In this document: in pieces, positions 3,821-49,006 of the stretch
How the letters are laid out: every line of letters starts with the position of its first letter
Numbering within the stretch: position 1 is the stretch's first letter
DNA from: a virus
Length of the DNA stretch: 64,000 bases
Reading direction: 5' to 3' (one strand)
Virus record (IMG/VR): IMGVR_UViG_3300020596_000011
Coordinates: 62,001 to 126,000 of that record
Position numbers and translations under genes: made by a program
The notes under the pieces: generated by a model
What the model was told of the DNA's origin: nothing
Database searches by the model: none
What the model saw: only the letters and a program-made list of their open reading frames with translations

Positions 3821-4612
3821 ATGGCGTATAGAATCTACGGGGTAGGCTCGGTTCAGTCTCCCGACAAAGTGGGCGAAACTGTAAATCTAGAGGGCTTGGA
3901 TACGTCCAACCTCCGCTATTTGAGCGACGAGCACGCCACCGACGACGTTGGTGGGGGTATGTTCGCAATATTAGGCGCTATTACCAGCTACAAGAAAATA
4001 TTTAAACAAGAGGACGCCCAAACGCCTAGACAAAAGCGCTGCTGGGACGTCGCAAAAGCTCCTTTCCTTTACTTTGAAGCTGAGCTTCTTCACAGCCACC
4101 CGAACGCGGCTAGCGCAGAAGCCCTTATCACATGGTGCGCACAACACCCTGAGAATGCTTTAAAAATTGGAGCTTCGATCGAAGGCGGTATCGTAAAGAG
4201 GGGTGACGCTGACGCAAAACACCTCGAGCAAACTGTAGGCGAGGGGATTGCCCTTACGATAAAGCCCATGATGCCGCGTTGCTCAGTGTTTCCCATGCTT
4301 GATTTACAAAAGAGTAACGTTCAAGTAGCTTACCCTAAAGCCTACGTAGCGCTCTTGCAGAAGTCGTCTAGTGATAAAGGGTTCATCGAGTTGAAGAAAA
4401 GCGAACAAATCCAACTTATTGCCGCGCGGCTAGCTCAGCTAAAGAAATCAGCCGAAGCTATGACATCGAGCATGAAGTGCAATCACTGCGGAAAACCAAC
4501 GTCTTTCTTCATCGGTAGCGATACACCCAACCGCTGCCCTTCGTGCTCTGCGGCGTTTTCAATGACTTCGCTCTGGAAAGCTGTTAAAAAAACAACAAAG
4601 GATGGTAAATAA
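3821..4612 (+). CDS. Possible virion maturation protease (XkdF-like) with C-terminal zinc ribbon
   Basis: A 263-residue protein. Residues 34-130 resemble phage XkdF/prohead-type serine proteases: a DEHATDD segment, a hydrophobic FLYFEAELLHSHPNA block with histidine, and IGASIEGG, which matches the family's serine-containing 'SIxG' block. Residues 221-246 carry two CxxC pairs (CNHC and CPSC) typical of a zinc ribbon, which is unusual for that family. It opens a plus-strand run of virion-type genes behind a late-type promoter. The protease call is tentative because the capsid gene it would serve is not nearby. Confidence 0.45.
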   Translation: MAYRIYGVGSVQSPDKVGETVNLEGLDTSNLRYLSDEHATDDVGGGMFAILGAITSYKKIFKQEDAQTPRQKRCWDVAKAPFLYFEAELLHSHPNAASAEALITWCAQHPENALKIGASIEGGIVKRGDADAKHLEQTVGEGIALTIKPMMPRCSVFPMLDLQKSNVQVAYPKAYVALLQKSSSDKGFIELKKSEQIQLIAARLAQLKKSAEAMTSSMKCNHCGKPTSFFIGSDTPNRCPSCSAAFSMTSLWKAVKKTTKDGK

Positions 4613-8855: not shown

Positions 8856-8874
8856 AGAAATAACGGAGGTGACT

Positions 8875-10599
8875 ATGGCGGCGGGGAAAAAATTAACAGC
8901 TGAAGACGTAGCAAAAGTCGCACAAGCAAAAAACCCAAACCTGCGCTTGGTCGAGAGTTCTTACGTTGACTTATCCACCCTGTGCATCTGGGTGGAAGAG
9001 GGTTGGGGTGAGTTTGAGCGAAAGCCTTCTATCATTCTTTATTCGAACAGCGTGTATCACCCTGAACACGGCAGGTTGCGTAAAAATGCAATTTTGGCAA
9101 AAGCGCAACAAAAACCGGAAAGCAAACAAAAGCGTAAAACCACTAACCTTGCCAAGTATGGACACGAATACATTTCACTCTGCCCACATGTACGTAGTAA
9201 AGTTTGTGCAACTAACTTAGAACGTTACGGTCATGAAACCCCGCTTTTGAACGCCGACGTTCAAGCTAAGATTAGTGCAACTAACTTAGAACGCTACGGT
9301 CATGAAAACCCCCTTTTGAACGCCGACGTTCAAGCTAAGATTAGAGCAACTAACTTAGAGGCGTATGGCGTAGAAAACGTCCTGTCGAGTAGTCTTATAC
9401 AAGACAGAGTAAAGACTACTAATCTACAGCGCTACGGGTTTGCAAACGCTGTGCAAGCCGAGGCGGTTCAGAGTAAAACGAAAAACACTAATTTACAGAG
9501 GTATGGCGCTGAATACGGTCTGTCAAACCCTGATGTGCAGCGTAAACGGAGACTTACTAACGTTGCGCGCTACGGGTCTGCGCACGCTACATTACACCCT
9601 GCGGTCAGAGCAAAACTAAGTGCTACCAATATCGCGCGATACGGCCACCAAAGTAGTTTCGGTAATTCAGACGTCCAGAAGAAAATTTACAGAACTAAGA
9701 TGCTTCGCGGGCTATACAAACAGTCTAAAGGTGAACTAGAACTGAGAGACTTTTGTAAAACACTGGACCCCGACGCCCGTACAACCATGGCGTATTTAAA
9801 CAAGAAAGCTTTCCAAATTGATATTTTTCTGCCTTCTAAAAATATATGCATCGAATACAATGGGATGTTTTGGCATTCCGAGGGGAATAAAAAAAATTAC
9901 TCCGAAAAACACTTAGACAAGACGAAAGCATGCGCTTTACAAGACAGACGTCTCATACACATTTGGGAAACCGAATGGCACAACAAGCGCCCTCAAGTGG
10001 AAAACTACATCCGAAGCGTAGCGGGTATTTTTGAAAGAAGGATTCCTGCAAGAAAATGCCTAGTAAAAGAAGTTACTGATAAGGCGCAAGTTAAAGCGTT
10101 TCTTGACAGCAATCACTTATTAGGCGCGTGCCCGTTTTCAAAAGCGGTGGGCATCTTCTTGAATGAGGAACTCGTAGGTGTTGCTCTTTTGGGGAGGCAC
10201 CATCGAACAAACGTCCTTAACATTGCTAAGCGATTTGCTTTTTTAGCGGGTGTTCAGGTGATTGGCGGCGTGAGCCGTCTTACCAAACACCTTTTAGACG
10301 TCTGCGAATCCGATTCCCTCGTCACTTGGGCCGATGTCAGGCTAGGAGCGGCGTCGGTCTACACGTCCGCAGGGTGGACCTTAGATTCCACGTCGCGCCC
10401 TGACTATTTTTACTGGCACGAATCTCAAAAAAGAGTTGTTTCAAAGCAGCATTTTAAAGACCACCGAAAAAGTTCAACCGGTGTTTCCGAAAAAGATTTT
10501 GCTAAAACCCGGAGATGCCTACGGATCTGGGACTGTGGAAAACATAGGTTTCGTATCTATAAAGGCGGAATTCCTACATGCTCGCTTTCATCCCCGTAG
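8875..10599 (+). CDS. Homing endonuclease-like protein with TNLxxYG repeats
   Basis: A 574-residue protein of a family common as free-standing endonuclease genes in large phages. About eight tandem units of roughly 24 residues, each with TNL and RYG or similar, span residues 85-265 and probably read DNA. The segment near 318-375 (CIEYNGMFWHSE, then an HLDKTKAC helix and IHIWETEW) matches the EDxHD/Vsr-like nuclease fold with acidic and histidine residues. The C-terminal 200 residues resemble the accessory domain usual in this family. The ATG at 8875 has GGAGG at 5 bases. It has its own promoter and lies between virion and lysis genes, typical of a mobile gene. Confidence 0.85.
   Translation: MAAGKKLTAEDVAKVAQAKNPNLRLVESSYVDLSTLCIWVEEGWGEFERKPSIILYSNSVYHPEHGRLRKNAILAKAQQKPESKQKRKTTNLAKYGHEYISLCPHVRSKVCATNLERYGHETPLLNADVQAKISATNLERYGHENPLLNADVQAKIRATNLEAYGVENVLSSSLIQDRVKTTNLQRYGFANAVQAEAVQSKTKNTNLQRYGAEYGLSNPDVQRKRRLTNVARYGSAHATLHPAVRAKLSATNIARYGHQSSFGNSDVQKKIYRTKMLRGLYKQSKGELELRDFCKTLDPDARTTMAYLNKKAFQIDIFLPSKNICIEYNGMFWHSEGNKKNYSEKHLDKTKACALQDRRLIHIWETEWHNKRPQVENYIRSVAGIFERRIPARKCLVKEVTDKAQVKAFLDSNHLLGACPFSKAVGIFLNEELVGVALLGRHHRTNVLNIAKRFAFLAGVQVIGGVSRLTKHLLDVCESDSLVTWADVRLGAASVYTSAGWTLDSTSRPDYFYWHESQKRVVSKQHFKDHRKSSTGVSEKDFAKTRRCLRIWDCGKHRFRIYKGGIPTCSLSSP
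9165..9700 (+). repeat. Tandem repeats in the homing endonuclease gene
   Basis: About eight diverged units of about 72 bp coding TNLxxYG segments. The second and third units (9207-9350) are nearly identical in DNA, showing recent duplication. Confidence 0.85.
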
Positions 10600-27379: not shown

Positions 27380-28030
27380 CTAAAGCCATTTTTTGGCTTG
27401 CCCGATAGCCGGAAACTGTTCACAAAAAACGTGTTGTATAGCCAAAGCGATATCTCTGTGTTCTTTTTGCGTTGAGACATCGGTCCTAAGGTCGAGGTAG
27501 TGTATCCAGTTGCGGAGGTTGTTTGTCATGTAAAGAGTTGTAGAGGTACCTAAAGGAAGGAGAAAACGCGCTTGCTCTTTAGCAATGTTTTTATCTAACG
27601 CCTCTTGGTAAAGCCTAGTGCTTAAGCTCTGAACTTGAATTTGCGCGTCCAGAAACCACGCAAGGTCTTCTTCGGACATATCATCTAAGGAGTTCTGACG
27701 GTTTTTCTTATCTTGCCTGCGGGCAGGGTAAGTCTCAAATTCAGTAACCGCTGCGTAGCGCTGCGAAAACTCTTGAAACGTTGCAGACCTATGCCGAAGA
27801 ATTTGTGCAGCTATGGCGCGTGAAGTAGTGATCTCCACTGTCATGTAAGCGTGTTCAAAGACAGACCAGTGGCTGTGCTCTATGCAGTAGTTCAAAAGTT
27901 TAGAGGCTGTTTCGTTGTTCATCTGGTTCGAGGGGTTAGACACGCGCGCCACGTAAGCTGAAAGCTGCTCTGCTGACATATGCTCTAGGTCACCCACGCC
28001 CTTGGTCACCGATACTAGTTTCACTTTCAA
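27380..28030 (-). CDS. thyX: Flavin-dependent thymidylate synthase ThyX
   Basis: A 216-residue enzyme making dTMP from dUMP with FAD, NADPH and methylene-tetrahydrofolate. The family signature RHRx7S is exact: RHR at 79-81 and Ser89, within RHRSATFQEFSQRY. Length matches the family. TTG start at 28030, 7 bases after the stop of the upstream ADP-ribosyltransferase gene. With the dCMP deaminase at 57140 it supplies thymidine nucleotides for phage DNA. Confidence 0.95.
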   Translation of the reverse strand: MKVKLVSVTKGVGDLEHMSAEQLSAYVARVSNPSNQMNNETASKLLNYCIEHSHWSVFEHAYMTVEITTSRAIAAQILRHRSATFQEFSQRYAAVTEFETYPARRQDKKNRQNSLDDMSEEDLAWFLDAQIQVQSLSTRLYQEALDKNIAKEQARFLLPLGTSTTLYMTNNLRNWIHYLDLRTDVSTQKEHRDIALAIQHVFCEQFPAIGQAKKWL

Positions 28031-28039
28031 AATATGATC

Positions 28040-29530
28040 TCATTTCTTGCTTTGTTTGGGGAGCGTGTCCGGCTTTTTAACGTCTTTCAATTCGTTTATT
28101 GTTTCATGGTCAGCGTTCTCTAGCGCATTGTTAAACTCGTCGGTCTCATTCTTCGGATCGTAGCTGTAGTGCCCGATTTTTGAAATATTTACACCGTGGT
28201 GATTATTTAAGTGATCGATCACATCATTTGCAGCAGCCCTGTGGGTGCCTGTGACAAGAGACCCATTCCCCATCTCACCATCGATCATGAAAGGCGGGAT
28301 TTTGTTTTCACCTTTTATTTGAGACACGACCATTTGATGCACGTGCGGCCAATCGTGCACGACGTGGATCGGGTTGAAGTTTTGCGGATAATAAGGTTTC
28401 TGTGAGAATTTAGCAATAGTCTGTTTTAAAGCATGCGGTAAGTTGTTTGATTTTATGAGAGGGTTCTTCGGCGGTTTTGGAATTGCAATCTTTTTGGGAG
28501 CTTCAAAATCTGTTCCCGAACTCGATTCATCACGGGGATGCCCAACTTCGATATCTTTGCTGCTCACTTTGAAGTGTGCCTCGGGGTGTGCGACGACGAT
28601 TTCTTCTTCACTTGAATGGACTGGGTTGTGCCCTGGATAAAGTGAATGGCCGCCGGTGTGCAGCACGTCTCTTAAGGGGACGTCCTTTTTCATGATGAGG
28701 TGGTGAGGGTGATCTTCTGAATCGTGCTCCCCCCGCCCTGTAGCGAAACGCGTAGCCATGTCACGACTAAGAGACCAAGAGGACATGTGAGCCGAAGGGA
28801 TTGTTACGGTTTTGTGGCGGTCCACTTTTGAAGCCTTCCCTACAGTGTAGGGGGACATACCGCCTTCGAGGTATTTTTCCTCGTCATGGTCTGTTACACC
28901 TAGTGAATCTTTCACCCGCTTTGCATAGCTTCCACCCACACCTCTATAGACCGTGATGTGCGGCTCGCCGTTAATCATTTTCTTGTTAATGTGGCTGTCG
29001 TTCATAATCGCTTTCTGTGAAGCAATCATGTGGTTAACGAGGTGAGGGGTTTGGTGCTTATGCTCGTCTGAGTGGCCCTTGTCACCTCTATGCGTTTCAA
29101 TGTGTTCAGGCTCCCCCGTGTACATCGCTTTAATAGCCGCAAAATGGCTGGGCTCCACTTTTCTCTCGTATGAGTTCCAGAAGTCCCCAGATTGCTGCTC
29201 ACCTTCCTCGGCGCCTCCACCTTGGTAGTTGGGGTGCGCTAAGATGGCTCCTGTGGAAAATTGCTCGTCAGGCGCGTGGCTCCATGCGTGTCTGAGTTGC
29301 TCTCTTGAGAGGTCCGGGTGTAGGTTGCCCGCTAAATTGTACAGTACATCCGATATTTGATCTTTGGGCGCGTGCTTCAGGTATTTTTCAACGTGACTTG
29401 GGGGAATAGGGTGTTCTTGTGCAGCAAGCATTTGAAAACCGCTGTGGTGTCTCAGTTTGTGTGCCACTGCGATGGCTTTGTCCCAGTCCTGTGTCTGGGC
29501 GTAATGGTCTAAAAGTTGGTAGTCGTTCAT
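28040..29530 (-). CDS. ADP-ribosyltransferase (R-S-E class) with C-terminal ParB/Srx-like domain
   Basis: A 496-residue protein. Residues 185-325 show the three marks of arginine-type mono-ADP-ribosyltransferases: Arg196 in ITVYRGVGG, the Ser block SSWSLSRD near 250-257 followed by a TRFATG helix, and the ExE motif at 308-310 in SSEEEIVV. It would transfer ADP-ribose from NAD to a host target, as Alt and Mod enzymes of T4 do. Residues 385-440 (PPFMIDGE, then LVTGTHRAAANDVI) resemble a ParB/sulfiredoxin-type fold. The first 100 residues are helical and unassigned. It overlaps the Nudix-GNAT gene by 4 bases (ATGA). Confidence 0.75.
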   Translation of the reverse strand: MNDYQLLDHYAQTQDWDKAIAVAHKLRHHSGFQMLAAQEHPIPPSHVEKYLKHAPKDQISDVLYNLAGNLHPDLSREQLRHAWSHAPDEQFSTGAILAHPNYQGGGAEEGEQQSGDFWNSYERKVEPSHFAAIKAMYTGEPEHIETHRGDKGHSDEHKHQTPHLVNHMIASQKAIMNDSHINKKMINGEPHITVYRGVGGSYAKRVKDSLGVTDHDEEKYLEGGMSPYTVGKASKVDRHKTVTIPSAHMSSWSLSRDMATRFATGRGEHDSEDHPHHLIMKKDVPLRDVLHTGGHSLYPGHNPVHSSEEEIVVAHPEAHFKVSSKDIEVGHPRDESSSGTDFEAPKKIAIPKPPKNPLIKSNNLPHALKQTIAKFSQKPYYPQNFNPIHVVHDWPHVHQMVVSQIKGENKIPPFMIDGEMGNGSLVTGTHRAAANDVIDHLNNHHGVNISKIGHYSYDPKNETDEFNNALENADHETINELKDVKKPDTLPKQSKK

Positions 29531-31932
29531 TTGGCACCCCTGCGCCCAATCGCATGCGCAACTTCCCGAGCTTCATCCCAGTCCACGGTCACTTCGTTGT
29601 CTGATTTTTTTAGAGAAGGCCCCTTTTGCCTAAACTGCCTAAACTTCCAGAGGTGTTCGGCATCGTGGCTCGTAGAACCTGCCTCTAATGGAACTCTGAA
29701 ATGTTCCTCTGCATAGTCGTACATTGCCGACGCAACCCCTTTACGCTGGTGCTGAGGAAACACCTCTGTCTCGTAAGACATAATGTGGTCGGTGGGCTTT
29801 TTAGAAAAAATAGGCACGCCCTCTGCGTCTTCGTTATTGTCCCAATCATGGTAACCTATGCTTGCAAATCCCGCATGGTTTCCTTGCTTATCGTGGGCAT
29901 TAACGTAGATGCCGCCGTGTGGGGAAGTTGTGTGAGAGAGCGTGTAACCCTCTTTTTGCCAATCCCCATTTTCACCTTTGCCCAAAGCAGCGACCCCCAC
30001 TTGCCCAGCACTCTTTTTTATCTCTGGCTGCGGTTCTAGCAGCGCATTCTTTTCAGGAAGTTGTGTAGTTTGGTGTGCGGTTTTCAACGAGCGTAGCACT
30101 GACGCGTATTTTGCAGCGGCATGCAAGACACTCGTCTCGTTTCCAAACTCTAGCTTAGCCATTGAGGAGTTTCTAGCAACACCTCCAACGCCCTTTTGCG
30201 AACTGTGGTCCGAGTGTCTGATTTTTGGATGGTCAAATGGGAAACGTATGTATCTTGAATTCGTTGTCTCTGCCTTTTCTTCCCCGTGAGGAATACCTGA
30301 ATCTTTGAGTTGACTTAAAAAGGCGTCGCATTGCAGGCTGCGTGTCTTCTGAGACGCAATCGCAAAACCTTGTTTTTCAAATTCGTCAGGTTGGAGCCCT
30401 TGGATGTACGCATGAGCGGAAGGAAGATCAGGAAAGCTTTCGGTGACCCCCTTTTTATTAGAAACTTTCACGGGTTTGTTTACGTGCTCCTCGAGCCAAA
30501 TACTACGGGAGACGCCCAAAGGACGGTCCGCCGGTGTGAGCGGAACGTGAGTAATATGCAAAGGCTTACCCAAAAGTGCGTCTTTTTTGTGCGGGTGGCT
30601 GTTCCTCACGGAATAGTAATTTGACATTGCGCGAAGTTTTTGCAAGCCCGTGCCTGCTTTGTTCAAATCTTTCGCCCAAACAATCGGAGGTTTTAGTGGG
30701 TCGCCCTGCACAACTTTTCGCGTTTTCCCGTCCATCGTAGGCTCTGGTAAATCTTTCGCATTTAATTTAGACCAAACCCGTTTCGCTGCGTTTGACGTTT
30801 TGCCGGTATCTGACGCAAGGCCGCCGTAATGATCTGCTAACTTTTGATAAACTTTTTGTCCTAGACCCTTACCCCTGTGAGGCTTGTCTATGAAGGAATG
30901 AGACATATGCATCCCATCGTGGCTTTTGTCGTGAAATTCCGAGTGGTCGACTAAAAATTTCCCAACCGTTTTGTTTTCGTGATGTAATTCCCAGTAGTGT
31001 CTTTTGGAAGTCCCCCGCTCTCCTGGTTCAGTCCAGTTTCTGTGATGGAGTGTATACCCGTTCCCAATTTCATGCATCGTGAGCCCTTGAGCGTCTTCAG
31101 CTTTGTTGAGCTTCTCGCCGTTCATTTTGGGAAACATTTTCAGTATCAGATTGTGTTTTGCAGCGACGTGAAGGTTTTCTAGGATTTCTTTCGGTAAACG
31201 CGCATTCACACTAAACCACTTAAAGCCTAGAGCTTCCTTGTCAGGGTCGTTTTCGTTTGTTATTTTTTGCGGGACTTTCTCTAGTTCAACTAAAAACGCC
31301 TTGACCACTTTGCCGTTAGGTGTTTTGCACCTCAATTTAGCGTCTGTAATTTCAGCTAAGTCTTGTATGCCTGTCTCTTCCCTAAATTCCCTTATTGCGC
31401 CTTTTTCAAAATCTTCGCCGTTTTCGACGTGTCCGCCAGGAAAGGTCCACTTTTTATTGTCGTTTCTTTTCATCATGAGAAGCTTATTATCCGCTTTCAC
31501 TGCAAGACACGCCACGCGGTTACTTTCCGATTTCCACAGGCGGGTAGACTTCTTGACAGGCTCCGTCGAGTAATCCTCAATTTCGCTTTGATGGACACGT
31601 TCAGGGTGACCGCCTAAAGTGTAGAAATTACCGCCGCCTTCTTGGAGACTTTTTCCATTGTCTACGATTTGAAGCACTGGATACCACAAGCCCTTGTACT
31701 TCGCTGTGTGCCCTTTGGGAGCCTTGTTTGCATTTGCTTTAGCTCGTGCAATTGCGTCTGCAAGGCTTTTTGCAAGTGCCGGATAAGACTTTGTTAACTG
31801 CGTGGCAGTGCTCATTGCGCTTTTTGCGAGACGGCTATCGCCGAGCTTAAGAGCCTCCTCTGCAATTTTGAGGGCTTCGCTAAAAGCTTTTAAAGCGTTT
31901 TGTTGAATTTGGGTAAGTGGTTGTTTTTGCAT
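29527..31932 (-). CDS. Nudix hydrolase fused to two GNAT acetyltransferase domains
   Basis: An 801-residue multidomain protein. Residues 1-70 are helical. Residues 138-265 form a Nudix domain with the full box: GGHVENGEDFEKG followed by REFREETGI. GNAT domain 1 (about 285-395) has the acetyl-CoA loop RGKGLG near 353, and GNAT domain 2 (about 655-765) has QRKGVA near 729. The middle is unassigned. Start at the ATG at 31932 with GAGGGG before it. A sigma-70-like promoter lies at 31961. It opens an operon with the ADP-ribosyltransferase and thyX. Nudix enzymes can cleave NAD, ADP-ribose or RNA caps; GNATs modify proteins or small molecules. This combination suggests a host-takeover role. Confidence 0.8.
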   Translation of the reverse strand: MQKQPLTQIQQNALKAFSEALKIAEEALKLGDSRLAKSAMSTATQLTKSYPALAKSLADAIARAKANANKAPKGHTAKYKGLWYPVLQIVDNGKSLQEGGGNFYTLGGHPERVHQSEIEDYSTEPVKKSTRLWKSESNRVACLAVKADNKLLMMKRNDNKKWTFPGGHVENGEDFEKGAIREFREETGIQDLAEITDAKLRCKTPNGKVVKAFLVELEKVPQKITNENDPDKEALGFKWFSVNARLPKEILENLHVAAKHNLILKMFPKMNGEKLNKAEDAQGLTMHEIGNGYTLHHRNWTEPGERGTSKRHYWELHHENKTVGKFLVDHSEFHDKSHDGMHMSHSFIDKPHRGKGLGQKVYQKLADHYGGLASDTGKTSNAAKRVWSKLNAKDLPEPTMDGKTRKVVQGDPLKPPIVWAKDLNKAGTGLQKLRAMSNYYSVRNSHPHKKDALLGKPLHITHVPLTPADRPLGVSRSIWLEEHVNKPVKVSNKKGVTESFPDLPSAHAYIQGLQPDEFEKQGFAIASQKTRSLQCDAFLSQLKDSGIPHGEEKAETTNSRYIRFPFDHPKIRHSDHSSQKGVGGVARNSSMAKLEFGNETSVLHAAAKYASVLRSLKTAHQTTQLPEKNALLEPQPEIKKSAGQVGVAALGKGENGDWQKEGYTLSHTTSPHGGIYVNAHDKQGNHAGFASIGYHDWDNNEDAEGVPIFSKKPTDHIMSYETEVFPQHQRKGVASAMYDYAEEHFRVPLEAGSTSHDAEHLWKFRQFRQKGPSLKKSDNEVTVDWDEAREVAHAIGRRGAK

Positions 31933-44532: not shown

Positions 44533-44689
44533 CAGGCTTGTCTTTCTTGAATATCTTCTCGTCGCAGTACAGATAGGCTAGCCGCAGTGCCTGCATGCGT
44601 ATACCGATCAGCTCGGGGTTCATCTCTTTCGATTTCTTGATCTTCTTTAGCGTAAGACCCTTTTTTACTTTTACTTTGTCGTCACTCAT
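44519..44689 (-). CDS. Small basic protein (56 residues)
   Basis: ATG at 44689, AAGGA upstream, overlapping the AAA ATPase gene stop by 4 bases. Lys-rich (KVKVKKGLTLKKIKKSKE) with a short helix. No family recognised. Confidence 0.65.
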   Translation of the reverse strand: MSDDKVKVKKGLTLKKIKKSKEMNPELIGIRMQALRLAYLYCDEKIFKKDKPDDKE

Positions 44690-45750
44690 GAAGATTTCCT
44701 TGCAAGTCCGAGTTTTCCAATCCGTACAGCGATGTAGTCCCAAGCCCAGTTTTGAGGGTCCAAGTCGGCTACATGCGCTAGCCCCGTAGGCCAGTGCTTT
44801 AGAGTATGCCTGAATTCTCCGTAAGAAAACATCCCCCTACACGTCTCAGGAAGAGCAGTAGTTAGCAGATAGTGTGCAGCCATCTCACTCTCCTGGCTCT
44901 GAAGATAGCCGATAGTCTCGTTCACAAGCCCTTTGGCTTCTAGCTGAGACACAGCTTCAAAATTTAACTGTGTGAGCGTCAGTGGAAACACAGTAGTCCT
45001 TTTGTCAACGATATCACAGTACTGTTGGAAACGTGCGTTCCCATGCTCTAGGCCCATTTTGCCTACGAACACATGGCGAGTTTCATCTCGCGATAGCAGC
45101 CCTGTTTCCGCAATCTCAAGAGCTTGATCGAGTTGTCTTGGTGACTCGCTAAGTTTTACCCAAACTTCCTCTCCCGATCCCGGCTCTTTAAAAAGCTTTG
45201 GGTGTTTCTGTAGCATCTCTGTTGCCAACTTCGACCGCATGGTGCGAGCCACTGCGTGGACGCTTGGAGCATGCACCACGTGTGTCACGCGTTTAATCAC
45301 GGCATCCGGTAGGTCACGTACACCGATGTCCTCAGTCTCTAAGTTAGCAGCCGCAAGAATAAGGACGTTGTCGGATAGCTTGTACGTATTCATAAATGTG
45401 CGATCGAGTAGCATTTCGGTAAACATTCCAAACGTCTGGTCGCTCATAGGCCGATTAAACTCGTCCAAAAACAACACGGTTTTGGGGACGACGTAGCCTG
45501 TGGACGGGTCGTCGCAGAGGTCCTTCACCCATTTGTCAGGGTACGGGATAAGTACCTTGTTTACTTCGTCTTTGTGTGGGATGCAAAGATTCAGCGGGTC
45601 GATATTTAATACGCGCCTCTCAATGTAGTTAAACCCGTGGTTTTGGGCAAACGCTTTTACTAGCGCAGATTTACCAAACCCGCTCGAACCATGTATCAGG
45701 ATTGTCTGTTTGGTCTGGAAGTGGGCTAGAAACATGTTGTCGGTAATCAT
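44686..45750 (-). CDS. MoxR-type AAA+ ATPase
   Basis: A 354-residue AAA+ protein. Walker A is GSSGFGKS at 21-28, Walker B VLFLDEFNRP near 91-100, with an ILAAANLE sensor-1 strand and PDAVIKR arginine-finger region. This fits the MoxR/BchI group, which works with VWA-domain partners to assemble or remodel complexes. The partner is the next gene upstream (45834). Own sigma-28-like promoter at 45782. Confidence 0.85.
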   Translation of the reverse strand: MITDNMFLAHFQTKQTILIHGSSGFGKSALVKAFAQNHGFNYIERRVLNIDPLNLCIPHKDEVNKVLIPYPDKWVKDLCDDPSTGYVVPKTVLFLDEFNRPMSDQTFGMFTEMLLDRTFMNTYKLSDNVLILAAANLETEDIGVRDLPDAVIKRVTHVVHAPSVHAVARTMRSKLATEMLQKHPKLFKEPGSGEEVWVKLSESPRQLDQALEIAETGLLSRDETRHVFVGKMGLEHGNARFQQYCDIVDKRTTVFPLTLTQLNFEAVSQLEAKGLVNETIGYLQSQESEMAAHYLLTTALPETCRGMFSYGEFRHTLKHWPTGLAHVADLDPQNWAWDYIAVRIGKLGLARKSS

Positions 45751-45781
45751 AAAAATCCTCTCGGTTTATTTCCTAGTGTAG

Positions 45782-45808
45782 TGTTCGGAGGGAGCGCGCA
45801 AAACTTGA
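45782..45808 (-). promoter_or_regulatory. Sigma-28-like promoter
   Basis: Minus strand: TCAAGTTT, 11 bases, TCCGAACA, 32 bases before the ATG at 45750. Confidence 0.65.
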
Positions 45809-45833
45809 GAGGAATTCACATATTTTTTAGCAA

Positions 45834-46964
45834 TCATATTTTTATTAAATGAAACCTATGCTGCGTTCTCACCAAATCCCACGCAATCTCTAAGTCGGAT
45901 AGCACAACGACATCGAGGTTGTTTCCGTGGTCTTTATAAATTTTGTTCATCATGGCGTCCGAGATTACTGTTCCACCCCCGCCTACAAACGCTTTAGCAT
46001 CCAAACTAAATGGTCGGATATCCGCATCAAACGTGTAAGTCGCTAGAAGCTTACCGCTCGCTTCCATGTGCTTGCAGCCTGCGTAGAGTTGAGAGAGTGT
46101 CTCAGGATTACACATAGATCCCGACACGTCAAGTAGTAGGACCGCTTGCCTTGTCCTTCCAGGTACTCTCTTAACGCCTGGAAGATACCCGTAGGCGTGG
46201 TTAATTGCGCTGCACGTGTAATGCGACTGTGGGTTTTTGAGGCTTAGCCTTTTTGTTACAATCCGCACTTGCTCTAGCGCATCGCGGATTGTCTTCATAA
46301 GTTTCGCCCTAGGGTCAAACGTCAGGTCGCTGTCCATAGCTTGGTGACCAGCGGTAGTCCCCATTCTTTGCGCAACGTCTTTCGCTGTCATAAGCTTATG
46401 CCTAATTAAGTCACCCACACCGTCTTCAATTTCGTGCTCGTCAAAAGACGGGGGGAGTTCGTCCGCAATGTCTAAGATCCGGTTGTAATAGTACACCCAG
46501 TCTTGGTTTCGCTCCAAGACGACGTGGGTGACGTTTGAGTGCTCTTTTGCCTTCCGGTCTATGGTCTCCTGCAAAGATTCCACGGTAACCATACCACCCA
46601 GCACGTCCTTAGTGGCTTGGGCTTCCGTTGGAAATAACCTGATAAGGTCTTCATGCAACGCTGCGTCCATGGCCGCGTTCGCAATCCGCTTTTCAAACTT
46701 AGACATCTTTTGCATCTCTAGGTAAGTGGCTATCTGGTATATGTGGCGGATTTCGTGGCATAAGACAAACAAAAACGTATCTTTGCTTGAGCACACGGCG
46801 TCACCCAAGGTGATCGAGATCCCGCTTGGAGTAAACCGCACACTGGCAGACGGCGTCTCCGAATTGTGTGACACCGACACTTGCTGGAGTAGCGCGAGGG
46901 TGTGATACATCCGCATTCTTGCCAGGGTCGTTACCGCGTGTTCGCGCAAGTTACTAATGTCCAT
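45834..46964 (-). CDS. VWA-domain protein with metallopeptidase-like domain (DUF2201 type)
   Basis: A 376-residue protein. LCHEIRH gives HExxH (His70, Glu71, His74) in an N-terminal putative metallopeptidase domain. Residues 285-376 are a VWA-like domain with the metal-site motif LLLDVSGSM and a FVGGGGT turn. This domain pair is known from bacteria and phages next to MoxR ATPases, as here. Its ATG overlaps the ligase stop as TAATG. The target is unknown. Confidence 0.85.
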   Translation of the reverse strand: MDISNLREHAVTTLARMRMYHTLALLQQVSVSHNSETPSASVRFTPSGISITLGDAVCSSKDTFLFVLCHEIRHIYQIATYLEMQKMSKFEKRIANAAMDAALHEDLIRLFPTEAQATKDVLGGMVTVESLQETIDRKAKEHSNVTHVVLERNQDWVYYYNRILDIADELPPSFDEHEIEDGVGDLIRHKLMTAKDVAQRMGTTAGHQAMDSDLTFDPRAKLMKTIRDALEQVRIVTKRLSLKNPQSHYTCSAINHAYGYLPGVKRVPGRTRQAVLLLDVSGSMCNPETLSQLYAGCKHMEASGKLLATYTFDADIRPFSLDAKAFVGGGGTVISDAMMNKIYKDHGNNLDVVVLSDLEIAWDLVRTQHRFHLIKI

Positions 46965-47854
46965 TACAAATCCCTTTCATCACGAAAGCCCAAAAACACA
47001 GGAAACCGCGGGCGACCTTCCGATCCCACACCCTGAAACTTAAACTTCACATGTCGACCTAGCAGCCGGTCTTTCTCCGACCAGTAAGACTTTCGAAGAC
47101 CGTGGGTAAGCCCATCACCGGTGCCGAGCTTAAACTCCAAGCCCTTCCACGCCACGACTAACGCGCCGAGGGTATCTTTACCGACCATGCCGTCTTGGTG
47201 AGACGATCGTTTCGTAGTCCCCAGCTCAGACACTTGTACAACGTTGGTATTCTGCATTTGTTCTTCATACCCGACGACCAGACCTTCATCGTCCTCGAAA
47301 AACTTAACTTTAAGCAAAATTTCTTCTTTTAAAGTAGAGCGTCCGAATTTGTAGCGTCCTTTTGGATCTCTTAGCATCGCGCCCTCGAGCCCAAGGTCGA
47401 CCCAATGCTGTGCTTGAGCAAGCGCCTCTTCGGCACCGGTCACAGTGAAATAAGACAGAAAACATACATGCGGGGGTTCCTTCGCCGCAAGAATGCGTGC
47501 TAAGCCCATCGCCCGCTCTTCATAATGTGCTTCGCCTATCTGGTCAAAAACCCAATACGTAAAAAATGGAGTTCCGGCTACGCTCATGACCGCTGATTGT
47601 GTTTGGTTGAAGTCACAACCGTTCACCATGATTTCACCGTCCATGCCGTCAAGCTCGGGCATCAAGTAGACAAGAGCTTCGAGTTGCTCGCGTATGTATG
47701 TGTTTGGGATAGGCTTCAGTTTGCGGGATACGGCTTTACCGTTCAACAGGATGCAACGTATACCATCCAGCTTTGTCGAGATAAGCTTTGGGTATTTGAG
47801 TTTTGAGAGGTCGTCGGCTTTTTCAGCGAGTAAAGGTTTAAACTGTTTCGTCAT
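46964..47854 (-). CDS. ATP-dependent DNA ligase
   Basis: A 296-residue ligase close to T7 type. Adenylation motif STKLDG has the active lysine at 28. Other nucleotidyltransferase motifs are DGEIMVNG (III), YWVFDQIG (IIIa), LEGAMLRDPKG (IV) and LLKVKFF (V). A C-terminal OB fold follows. Start at the ATG at 47854, GGAG upstream. Seals nicks during phage replication and repair. First gene of the operon with VWA and possibly MoxR. Confidence 0.92.
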   Translation of the reverse strand: MTKQFKPLLAEKADDLSKLKYPKLISTKLDGIRCILLNGKAVSRKLKPIPNTYIREQLEALVYLMPELDGMDGEIMVNGCDFNQTQSAVMSVAGTPFFTYWVFDQIGEAHYEERAMGLARILAAKEPPHVCFLSYFTVTGAEEALAQAQHWVDLGLEGAMLRDPKGRYKFGRSTLKEEILLKVKFFEDDEGLVVGYEEQMQNTNVVQVSELGTTKRSSHQDGMVGKDTLGALVVAWKGLEFKLGTGDGLTHGLRKSYWSEKDRLLGRHVKFKFQGVGSEGRPRFPVFLGFRDERDL

Positions 47855-47881
47855 AACGCACTCCATTAAGGTCTATCAGAG

Positions 47882-47908
47882 GTATCGCCAGTCTGTGCCA
47901 AAACTTGA
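47882..47908 (-). promoter_or_regulatory. Sigma-28-like promoter
   Basis: Minus strand: TCAAGTTT, 11 bases, GGCGATAC, 28 bases before the ligase ATG. Confidence 0.72.
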
Positions 47909-48040
47909 GAGAAAAGTTTTAAGGTTTTGATCATAGCTGAGGTTTTAGTCAAAAGTCCAGCAATTCTTCTCATTTTGCGCTCTTGCCTGACACTCAGCTC
48001 AAAGATGTTGTTTGGGCACCTAGTCAACTCTGGCCGGTTG

Positions 48041-48047
48041 GTAAAAT
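48041..48047 (+). promoter_or_regulatory. GTAAAAT-class (late) promoter
   Basis: GTAAAAT 25 bases before the GTG at 48073. Confidence 0.55.
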
Positions 48048-48072
48048 GCTAAATAATAAGAGGGGGGTCGGC

Positions 48073-48393
48073 GTGGACGTAATTGATTGGATCTTTAAAA
48101 GCATTCAGGGCGGTAACACGGCACTCGCCATAGCTATAGTATCAGGTGCCGCGTTATACGGTATTTGGCAGCTCGCTATGCGCTTTTTAAGGTTTTTAAC
48201 TACCCTTTTTAAAAACACGAATGCAGAACTATGCTCTATGAAAGAGATGTTTGTCGGCTTAACCAAAGAAGTCGAGAAGTTAAACCTCGTGTTAGAGAAA
48301 ACCGTAGAACTCAGCTCTCAGCGCTTTGGTCACCTCGAGCACCGTGTCAGCCGCCTAGAGAATCGTGTCGACGTTTTACAAGATAAAGACTAA
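48073..48393 (+). CDS. Holin-like membrane protein with coiled coil (106 residues)
   Basis: GTG at 48073 chosen for the AGGGGGG 5 bases before it. One clear membrane span (residues 17-37) is followed by a C-terminal coiled coil (FVGLTKEVEKLNLVLEK onward). This layout occurs in holin-associated or XhlA-like proteins and some inner spanins. Late-type promoter in front, metalloprotease gene 5 bases after. Confidence 0.55.
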   Translation: MDVIDWIFKSIQGGNTALAIAIVSGAALYGIWQLAMRFLRFLTTLFKNTNAELCSMKEMFVGLTKEVEKLNLVLEKTVELSSQRFGHLEHRVSRLENRVDVLQDKD

Positions 48394-48397
48394 CAAT

Positions 48398-49006
48398 ATG
48401 ACTATCATCGGTATTTTTGTTGCCCTCTTTATCGGTTTAGGTGTGTCTTCTGTTGCTGGCAGGTCAGGGTACATTGACCCTATCATGCTGACCGGCGACG
48501 GTATCAGCGACCCGTTGATTAAAGCCGAAGCTGCCGAGTTCATTCAAGCTTGTGAGCGAAGAGGGGTAATGGAGCCCTGTGAATTGGGCGTGGGATTTAT
48601 CACGCGCGGCGAGTTTTGGCATGAAGACGCATTCAACACGCTACCAGGATCGGACGGCGCAGCGGGTATTACGTACAGTTCGTTTGTCACACCTTTCAAA
48701 AACATCTTTATTCAAGCGCACTTGCAGTATGCGTTGACGGATCGGGCCTTAAAAAACCTGATCTGGCACGAACTAGCGCATGCCGTGTTTCAGGCGGAGC
48801 ACGACGACTTGTCCCCGCATCTCATGAATTCCGGTTTTGGGATCTACGAGCTAGAAAAAGAGCGGATGTCGTGGGATATCTTGGAAGAACACTTGTTTCG
48901 CAACTACGGGTTTCCCAACACTCAAAAATTAAAGTTTCATTGTAACTTAAACGACTTACGGGCTTTGGGTACCCTTCTCATTGCGGGCTACTGCACAAAC
49001 CCCTAG
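48398..49006 (+). CDS. Exported zinc metalloprotease-like protein (202 residues)
   Basis: Start at the ATG at 48398 just after the previous stop; a GTG at 48365 is less likely. Residues 1-21 form a signal or membrane anchor. IWHELAH at 122-128 is a perfect HExxH core, with His135 and LMNSG at 142-146 resembling a metzincin third ligand and Met-turn, though the spacing to the third His is one residue longer than standard. It likely acts in the periplasm; co-transcription with a holin-like gene suggests a role in lysis or release. Confidence 0.65.
   Translation: MTIIGIFVALFIGLGVSSVAGRSGYIDPIMLTGDGISDPLIKAEAAEFIQACERRGVMEPCELGVGFITRGEFWHEDAFNTLPGSDGAAGITYSSFVTPFKNIFIQAHLQYALTDRALKNLIWHELAHAVFQAEHDDLSPHLMNSGFGIYELEKERMSWDILEEHLFRNYGFPNTQKLKFHCNLNDLRALGTLLIAGYCTNP

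Follow-up and report, generated by a model that had tools for sequence, protein, structure and literature searches.

A phage Nudix-GNAT-GNAT protein enriched in the presumed cut-site motif of the head-maturation protease is a candidate capsid-packaged effector polyprotein

An 801-residue phage protein (P1), probably together with the 496-residue product of the adjoining gene (P2), may be a capsid-packaged effector polyprotein whose domains would be separated by the maturation protease and ejected on infection, a reading of the sequence to which we assign a probability of roughly 0.6. P1 carries the presumed cut-site motif of this protease, mostly between its domains, which suggests cutting inside the capsid and delivery with the DNA. 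In the proposed course of events P1, and probably P2, would enter the prohead during head assembly, where a maturation protease of the HK97/herpes fold would cut P1 after the lysine of LxK[S/A], mostly in linkers. Cutting would yield a Nudix hydrolase and two acetyltransferases from P1, and P2 would contribute an ADP-ribosyltransferase (ART). The cut domains would remain in the head and then enter the cell along with the DNA, to modify proteins or nucleotides of the host soon after infection starts. The domain layout itself is already known; the maturation-protease polyprotein reading is what is new here.

Both genes lie on the minus strand of a 64,000-nucleotide stretch of viral DNA (the window), which is part of a virus record of 147,886 bases. 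P1 (29527..31932) starts at an ATG at 31932 with GAGGGG directly 5' of it, and P2 (28040..29530) shares four bases with P1, the stop/start overlap ATGA (29527..29530). On the same strand thyX (27380..28030; Pfam Thy1 1.9e-46, PHROG thymidylate synthase 1.1e-72) begins 9 nt 3' of P2. The overlap and the downstream thyX had been described correctly in an earlier note on this DNA, whose observation as a whole is largely right. The pair is flanked by tail-fibre genes and lies outside the head cluster of its own phage. Scans for promoters (11 seen, 7.7 expected) and terminators (8 seen, 11.6 expected) were uninformative, and a scan of the genome collection with P1 found no relatives of it.

The Nudix domain of P1 (PF00293, 4.2e-17; residues 140-245, window 31198-31515, minus strand) contains a perfect Nudix box at residues 167-189 (GHVENGEDFEKGAIREFREETGI; 31366..31434, minus strand), in which G167-x5-E-x7-REUxEExGU reproduces the class pattern GX5EX7REUXEEXGU. 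The Pfam profile Acetyltransf_1 matches P1 in two stretches (1.1e-9). The core of the first GNAT domain (residues 311-369; 30826..31002, minus strand; Acetyltransf_7/_10) has the acetyl-CoA motif RGKGLG, and the second (residues 657-746; 29695..29964, minus strand; Acetyltransf_1) has QRKGVA; both conform to the acetyl-CoA motif R/Q-x-x-G-x-G/A within segments matched by Acetyltransf_1/_7, and acetyl-CoA is what these two predicted GNATs use. GNAT 1 is 33-36% identical to a GNAT segment in internal virion proteins of the Drulisvirus type (podovirus), and GNAT 2 is 39% identical to the GNAT of gp224 from the Tunturiibacter phage Tunturi_5. Recent duplication of one GNAT into the other was considered and rejected, as the two share just 28% identity across 36 residues. 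Pfam and the motifs bear out the description of P1 as one Nudix box with two GNAT motifs, and P1 (Nudix, GNAT and GNAT) has the at least two unrelated effector domains per chain by which polyvalent proteins are recognized.

The sites of the form [LIVM]-x-K-S/A in P1 fall mainly in linkers, outside the catalytic domains. Three LxKS motifs occupy the N-terminal region (LAKS 35, LTKS 46, LAKS 53; 31765..31830), and two lie directly ahead of the Nudix domain (VKKS 126 and LWKS 132; 31528..31557). LNKA 275 (31099..31110) is in the linker between Nudix and GNAT 1, LNKA 423 (30655..30666) is 3' of GNAT 1, IKKS 638 (30010..30021) is ahead of GNAT 2 and LKKS 774 (29602..29613) is beyond it, all on the minus strand. 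VVKA 209 is within the Nudix fold. One site in ten is inside a Pfam envelope (p = 0.12 by the strict count, 0.02 with hand-extended domains), a placement that is only suggestive.

An excess of the presumed cleavage motif would be expected of a prohead-protease substrate, and P1 has 7 [LIVM]xKS motifs where 1.0 is expected, a count reached by 0 of 500 composition-preserving shuffles, for a motif that was picked after P1 had been read. P1 is richer than chance in the related pattern hK.s as well (7 versus 2.3 expected), and scrambled control motifs are mostly near chance. In the same phage the head set has 14 motifs against 1.9 expected and a 1049-residue repeat protein 6 against 1.6, and 111 other proteins together have 33 against 34, which is chance. 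Ranking all phage proteins of at least 150 residues by their excess over shuffles, before head roles were checked, placed a scaffold-like protein, a protease-like protein, P1, the 1049-residue repeat protein and the portal at the top. Scaffolds from five relatives contain 22 motifs versus 2.2 expected. LxK[S/A] in P1 is non-random, and it is common to the scaffold, maturation protease, portal and major capsid protein. The earlier suggestion that the two proteins are perhaps present in the virion is supported to this extent, in that the LxKS evidence makes such presence likelier for P1.

The head-maturation (prohead) protease of this phage, whose C-terminal part is LxKS-rich, is encoded at 3821..4612 on the plus strand and was assigned from an alignment, a structural model and phrog_1028. 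Among the head proteins, PHROG profiles recognize the scaffold at 2.4e-4, the portal at 1.5e-8 and the major capsid protein at 8.7e-10, with a weak match for the protease (0.0076). Across an alignment of 28 protease sequences H38, S119 and E121 are invariant and H93 nearly so. The model (pLDDT 78) has herpesvirus maturation proteases as its best PDB matches (best E 0.008), and its matches in BFVD, a viral set, include many prohead proteases, so that a fold of the HK97/herpes type is supported by modeling. In four related loci (L039:6062-10348, L038:5736-9530, L040:9165-12818 and L036:13002-16721) the protease forms the N-terminal part of a protein of 1217-1428 residues. The LxKS-rich 1049-residue protein (G000:C1 144641-147790, outside the window) consists in part of 12 in-phase LRV repeats of 28 residues and adjoins the scaffold gene; it is likely another packaged protein. 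Two similar homing-endonuclease-like ORFs were also seen, one at window 8869-10599 and one at G000:C1 4053-5579, just 3' of the major capsid gene; the second was recognized by phrog_3339, and the likeness of the first was judged by eye.

The same motif recurs in the head proteins of protease-bearing relatives. Scaffolds 5' of the major capsid gene in 34 contigs found via the protease contain 52 motifs against 6.1 expected, with the consensus L-x-K-[S/A]-[E/D], and the capsid N-termini of such relatives read LxKALEAG or LxKAMEAG. The capsid part of this survey is circular, because K[A/S] was itself used in finding the capsid genes; for the Myxococcus phage Mx1 and for L037, PHROGs recognized the capsid protein without recourse to the motif. 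The capsid protein of the phage studied here has LNKS at residues 24-27. In HK97, residues 101-104 of gp5 are FNKS, the mature PDB chains begin at 104, and the capsid cleavage site is K103/S104 (PMC10275583). The cut made in the HK97 gp5/gp4 system, after the lysine of FNKS, fits the motif; its substrate is the scaffold domain of the capsid protein, not an effector.

Beyond head proteins, the polyvalent proteins of protease-bearing relatives contain 11 LxK[SA][ED] motifs versus 2.4 expected. The motif is at chance in the Drulisvirus internal protein and in the polyvalent proteins of Tunturi_5, a phage without a match to the protease of the P1 phage. A Nudix/LPD1 polyvalent protein (L014:5947-10272) has a moderate LxKS excess, and no protease match was found in its 108-kb record. 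A Nudix alignment drew in 16 more IMG/VR loci, several of which encode polyvalent proteins of 989-2067 residues with kinase domains, PBECR5 or LPD1, and in the relatives LxKS motifs come directly after the Nudix domain. The longest of these (L018:5938-12141, 2067 residues) combines Nudix, PBECR5 and a PI3/PI4-type kinase domain with many HRDGDLPAIE..DG..EWY.NGK repeats. By eye, the phage studied here also has two arrays, together about 15 ORFs, of paralogous ankyrin-like frames of roughly 125-270 residues (MDYQDEFLQAVKSGDLDTVKRLVEAGLVDP...) outside the window (G000:C1 24767-29604, minus strand, and 44648-48780, plus strand).

It is unlikely, if still a serious alternative, that P1 and P2 are ordinary intracellular accessory enzymes made with thyX and never packaged, acting in nucleotide and NAD metabolism or in anti-defence, with LxKS incidental in lysine-rich linkers. 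Their place directly 5' of thyX on the same strand and apart from the head genes would suit such enzymes, as would the lack of motif enrichment in P2. Against this stand the P1 count that composition-preserving shuffles never reach, the scrambled controls, and the position of the motif between domains in protease-bearing relatives when the Tunturi_5 and Drulisvirus proteins are at chance.

The earlier note presented the layout as one without a known phage counterpart, a view contradicted by two published accounts (PMC5512222, PMC9503650) and by Mx1 WNM70333.1. A 2017 paper in the Journal of Bacteriology described phage polyvalent proteins, in which ART, GNAT, ParB-like and further effector domains are joined; they are thought to be packaged and injected, with self-cleavage proposed to occur through a built-in metallopeptidase (PMC5512222). 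The domain set of P1 and P2 matches these large multi-effector chains, and the layout is not unprecedented. P1 and P2 differ from them in being two overlapping genes and in their ART signature, which is R-S-E, the family typical of that work being H-Y-D (PMC5512222). Pfam finds no LPD, ART-PolyVal or MPTase domain in P1 or P2, domains that are common and not obligatory in the polyvalent class. The proposed cleavage agent differs as well: the P1 evidence points to the capsid-maturation protease instead of a built-in metallopeptidase.

In Mx1 a single chain, WNM70333.1 (1479 residues), carries GNAT, ART and Nudix domains along with the ParB-like motif DGNHR. Its Nudix domain is 37% identical to that of P1, it has LxKS in its linkers, and its phage encodes the same protease family. 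Unlike P1 and P2, it is encoded by a single gene, its ART belongs to the ART-PolyVal family, and the gene is located in a head-gene cluster and followed by a kinase gene. This location speaks for packaging, as does the likeness of GNAT 1 to the podovirus internal virion proteins. The arrangement in adjacent genes is found in Tunturi_5, in which gp225 (ART repeats with a ParB-like motif) is followed by gp224 (GNAT-GNAT with a ParB-like motif); the ART is of the ART-PolyVal type, and the pair lacks an LxKS excess and has no Nudix domain that Pfam could find. Tunturi_5 gp224 (L011:4779-6845) is annotated as a portal protein, and its sequence reads GNAT-GNAT with a ParB-like DGFHR motif, so that the label is probably a misannotation.

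R-S-E ADP-ribosyltransferases carry R, S-x-S and E-x-E motifs in that order. P2 has the corresponding signature in a putative ART region (residues ~118-340; 28511..29179, minus strand; motif scan), with R196 in VYRG, S250-S253 (SSWS) in SSWSLSRDMATRFA and E308-E310 in EEEIVV. The textbook pattern, composed post hoc with P2 already seen, picks out P2 and no other member of a set of 519 phage proteins, and it matches 0 of 2,440 shuffled sequences. Pfam, PHROG, NCBIfam and PADLOC give P2 no informative match and none naming an ART. The ART profiles PF03496 and PF18760 (ART-PolyVal) leave P2 unmatched, and PF18760 matches nothing in the whole phage. The single-sequence AlphaFold model (pLDDT 38) is uninformative on an ART fold. 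The earlier claim of an R-S-E ART in P2 stands for its motifs and failed to gain a family profile, and the assignment is a motif-level one only. The claimed ParB/Srx-like end of P2 (PPFMID...GTHRAAA; 28151..28408, minus strand) is unproven and was not borne out: a profile built from P2 and four relatives (A2) has ParB proteins as its best PDB matches (E 0.015), and with P2 omitted the ParB profile scores P2 no higher than shuffles.

Nor does the N-terminus of P2 resemble the LRV repeats of the 1049-residue protein, a possibility that scored no better than shuffles. P2 has no close relatives among phages, plasmids and IMG/VR, except for a stretch of 100% identity in IMG/VR 3300020057_000001. 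One LxKS motif, LIKS 358 (28448..28459, minus strand), separates the ART region from the C-terminal domain. The case for P2 being packaged rests on the operon, because this single motif is no excess.

The co-encoding of an ART signature and a Nudix domain had been read as an NAD-centred pair, in which P2 would attach ADP-ribose to proteins or RNA of the host, the Nudix domain of P1 would remove ADP-ribose or NAD caps, and the two together would counter NAD-based defence. Phage NAD/ADP-ribose systems are common, and a 2022 survey covers head-packaged ARTs and Nudix proteins (PMC9503650). Nothing ties the P1 Nudix to NAD or ADP-ribose substrates, and four of its close relatives (L015, L018, L020 and L024) are fused to kinase domains instead, making this pairing doubtful. 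It is not mutually exclusive with packaging, and an NAD theme is possible as one option among several.

Packaging of effectors has precedents: Alt of T4 is a head-packaged, injected ART, and T4 internal proteins have a removable N-terminal targeting peptide. That P1 is packaged and stays uncut between domains, LxKS being a capsid-targeting or scaffold-binding signal or residues 35-56 a removable targeting peptide, is improbable, for although three P1 motifs cluster in the N-terminal region and mass spectrometry of SPN3US found that cuts, other than those by which the protease cleaves itself, take off N-terminal propeptides (PMC10052503), six more P1 motifs are in or near inter-domain regions and those of the relatives come directly after Nudix. 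The internal head proteins of SPN3US are cut by its prohead protease at AxE rather than LxKS. T4 Alt and the SPN3US ejection proteins, all head-packaged, are not known as polyproteins whose catalytic domains are cut apart from one another, and an incomplete search of the literature found no paper in which a prohead protease processes polyvalent proteins at LxKS.

The polyprotein reading of P1 may extend to a wide clade of protease-bearing phages, where, at slightly less than even odds, polyvalent effectors would be true polyproteins: within the prohead, the protease that clears the scaffold would also cut them in linkers containing LxK[S/A]. A cut-site shared by scaffold, capsid and effector would be a simple alternative, testable on a laboratory phage (Mx1), to the published metallopeptidase self-cleavage for the processing of polyvalent proteins (PMC5512222). 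It would also offer a route to predicting injected proteins from sequence. If the polyprotein reading is true, one motif would predict much of the set of effectors that a phage injects.
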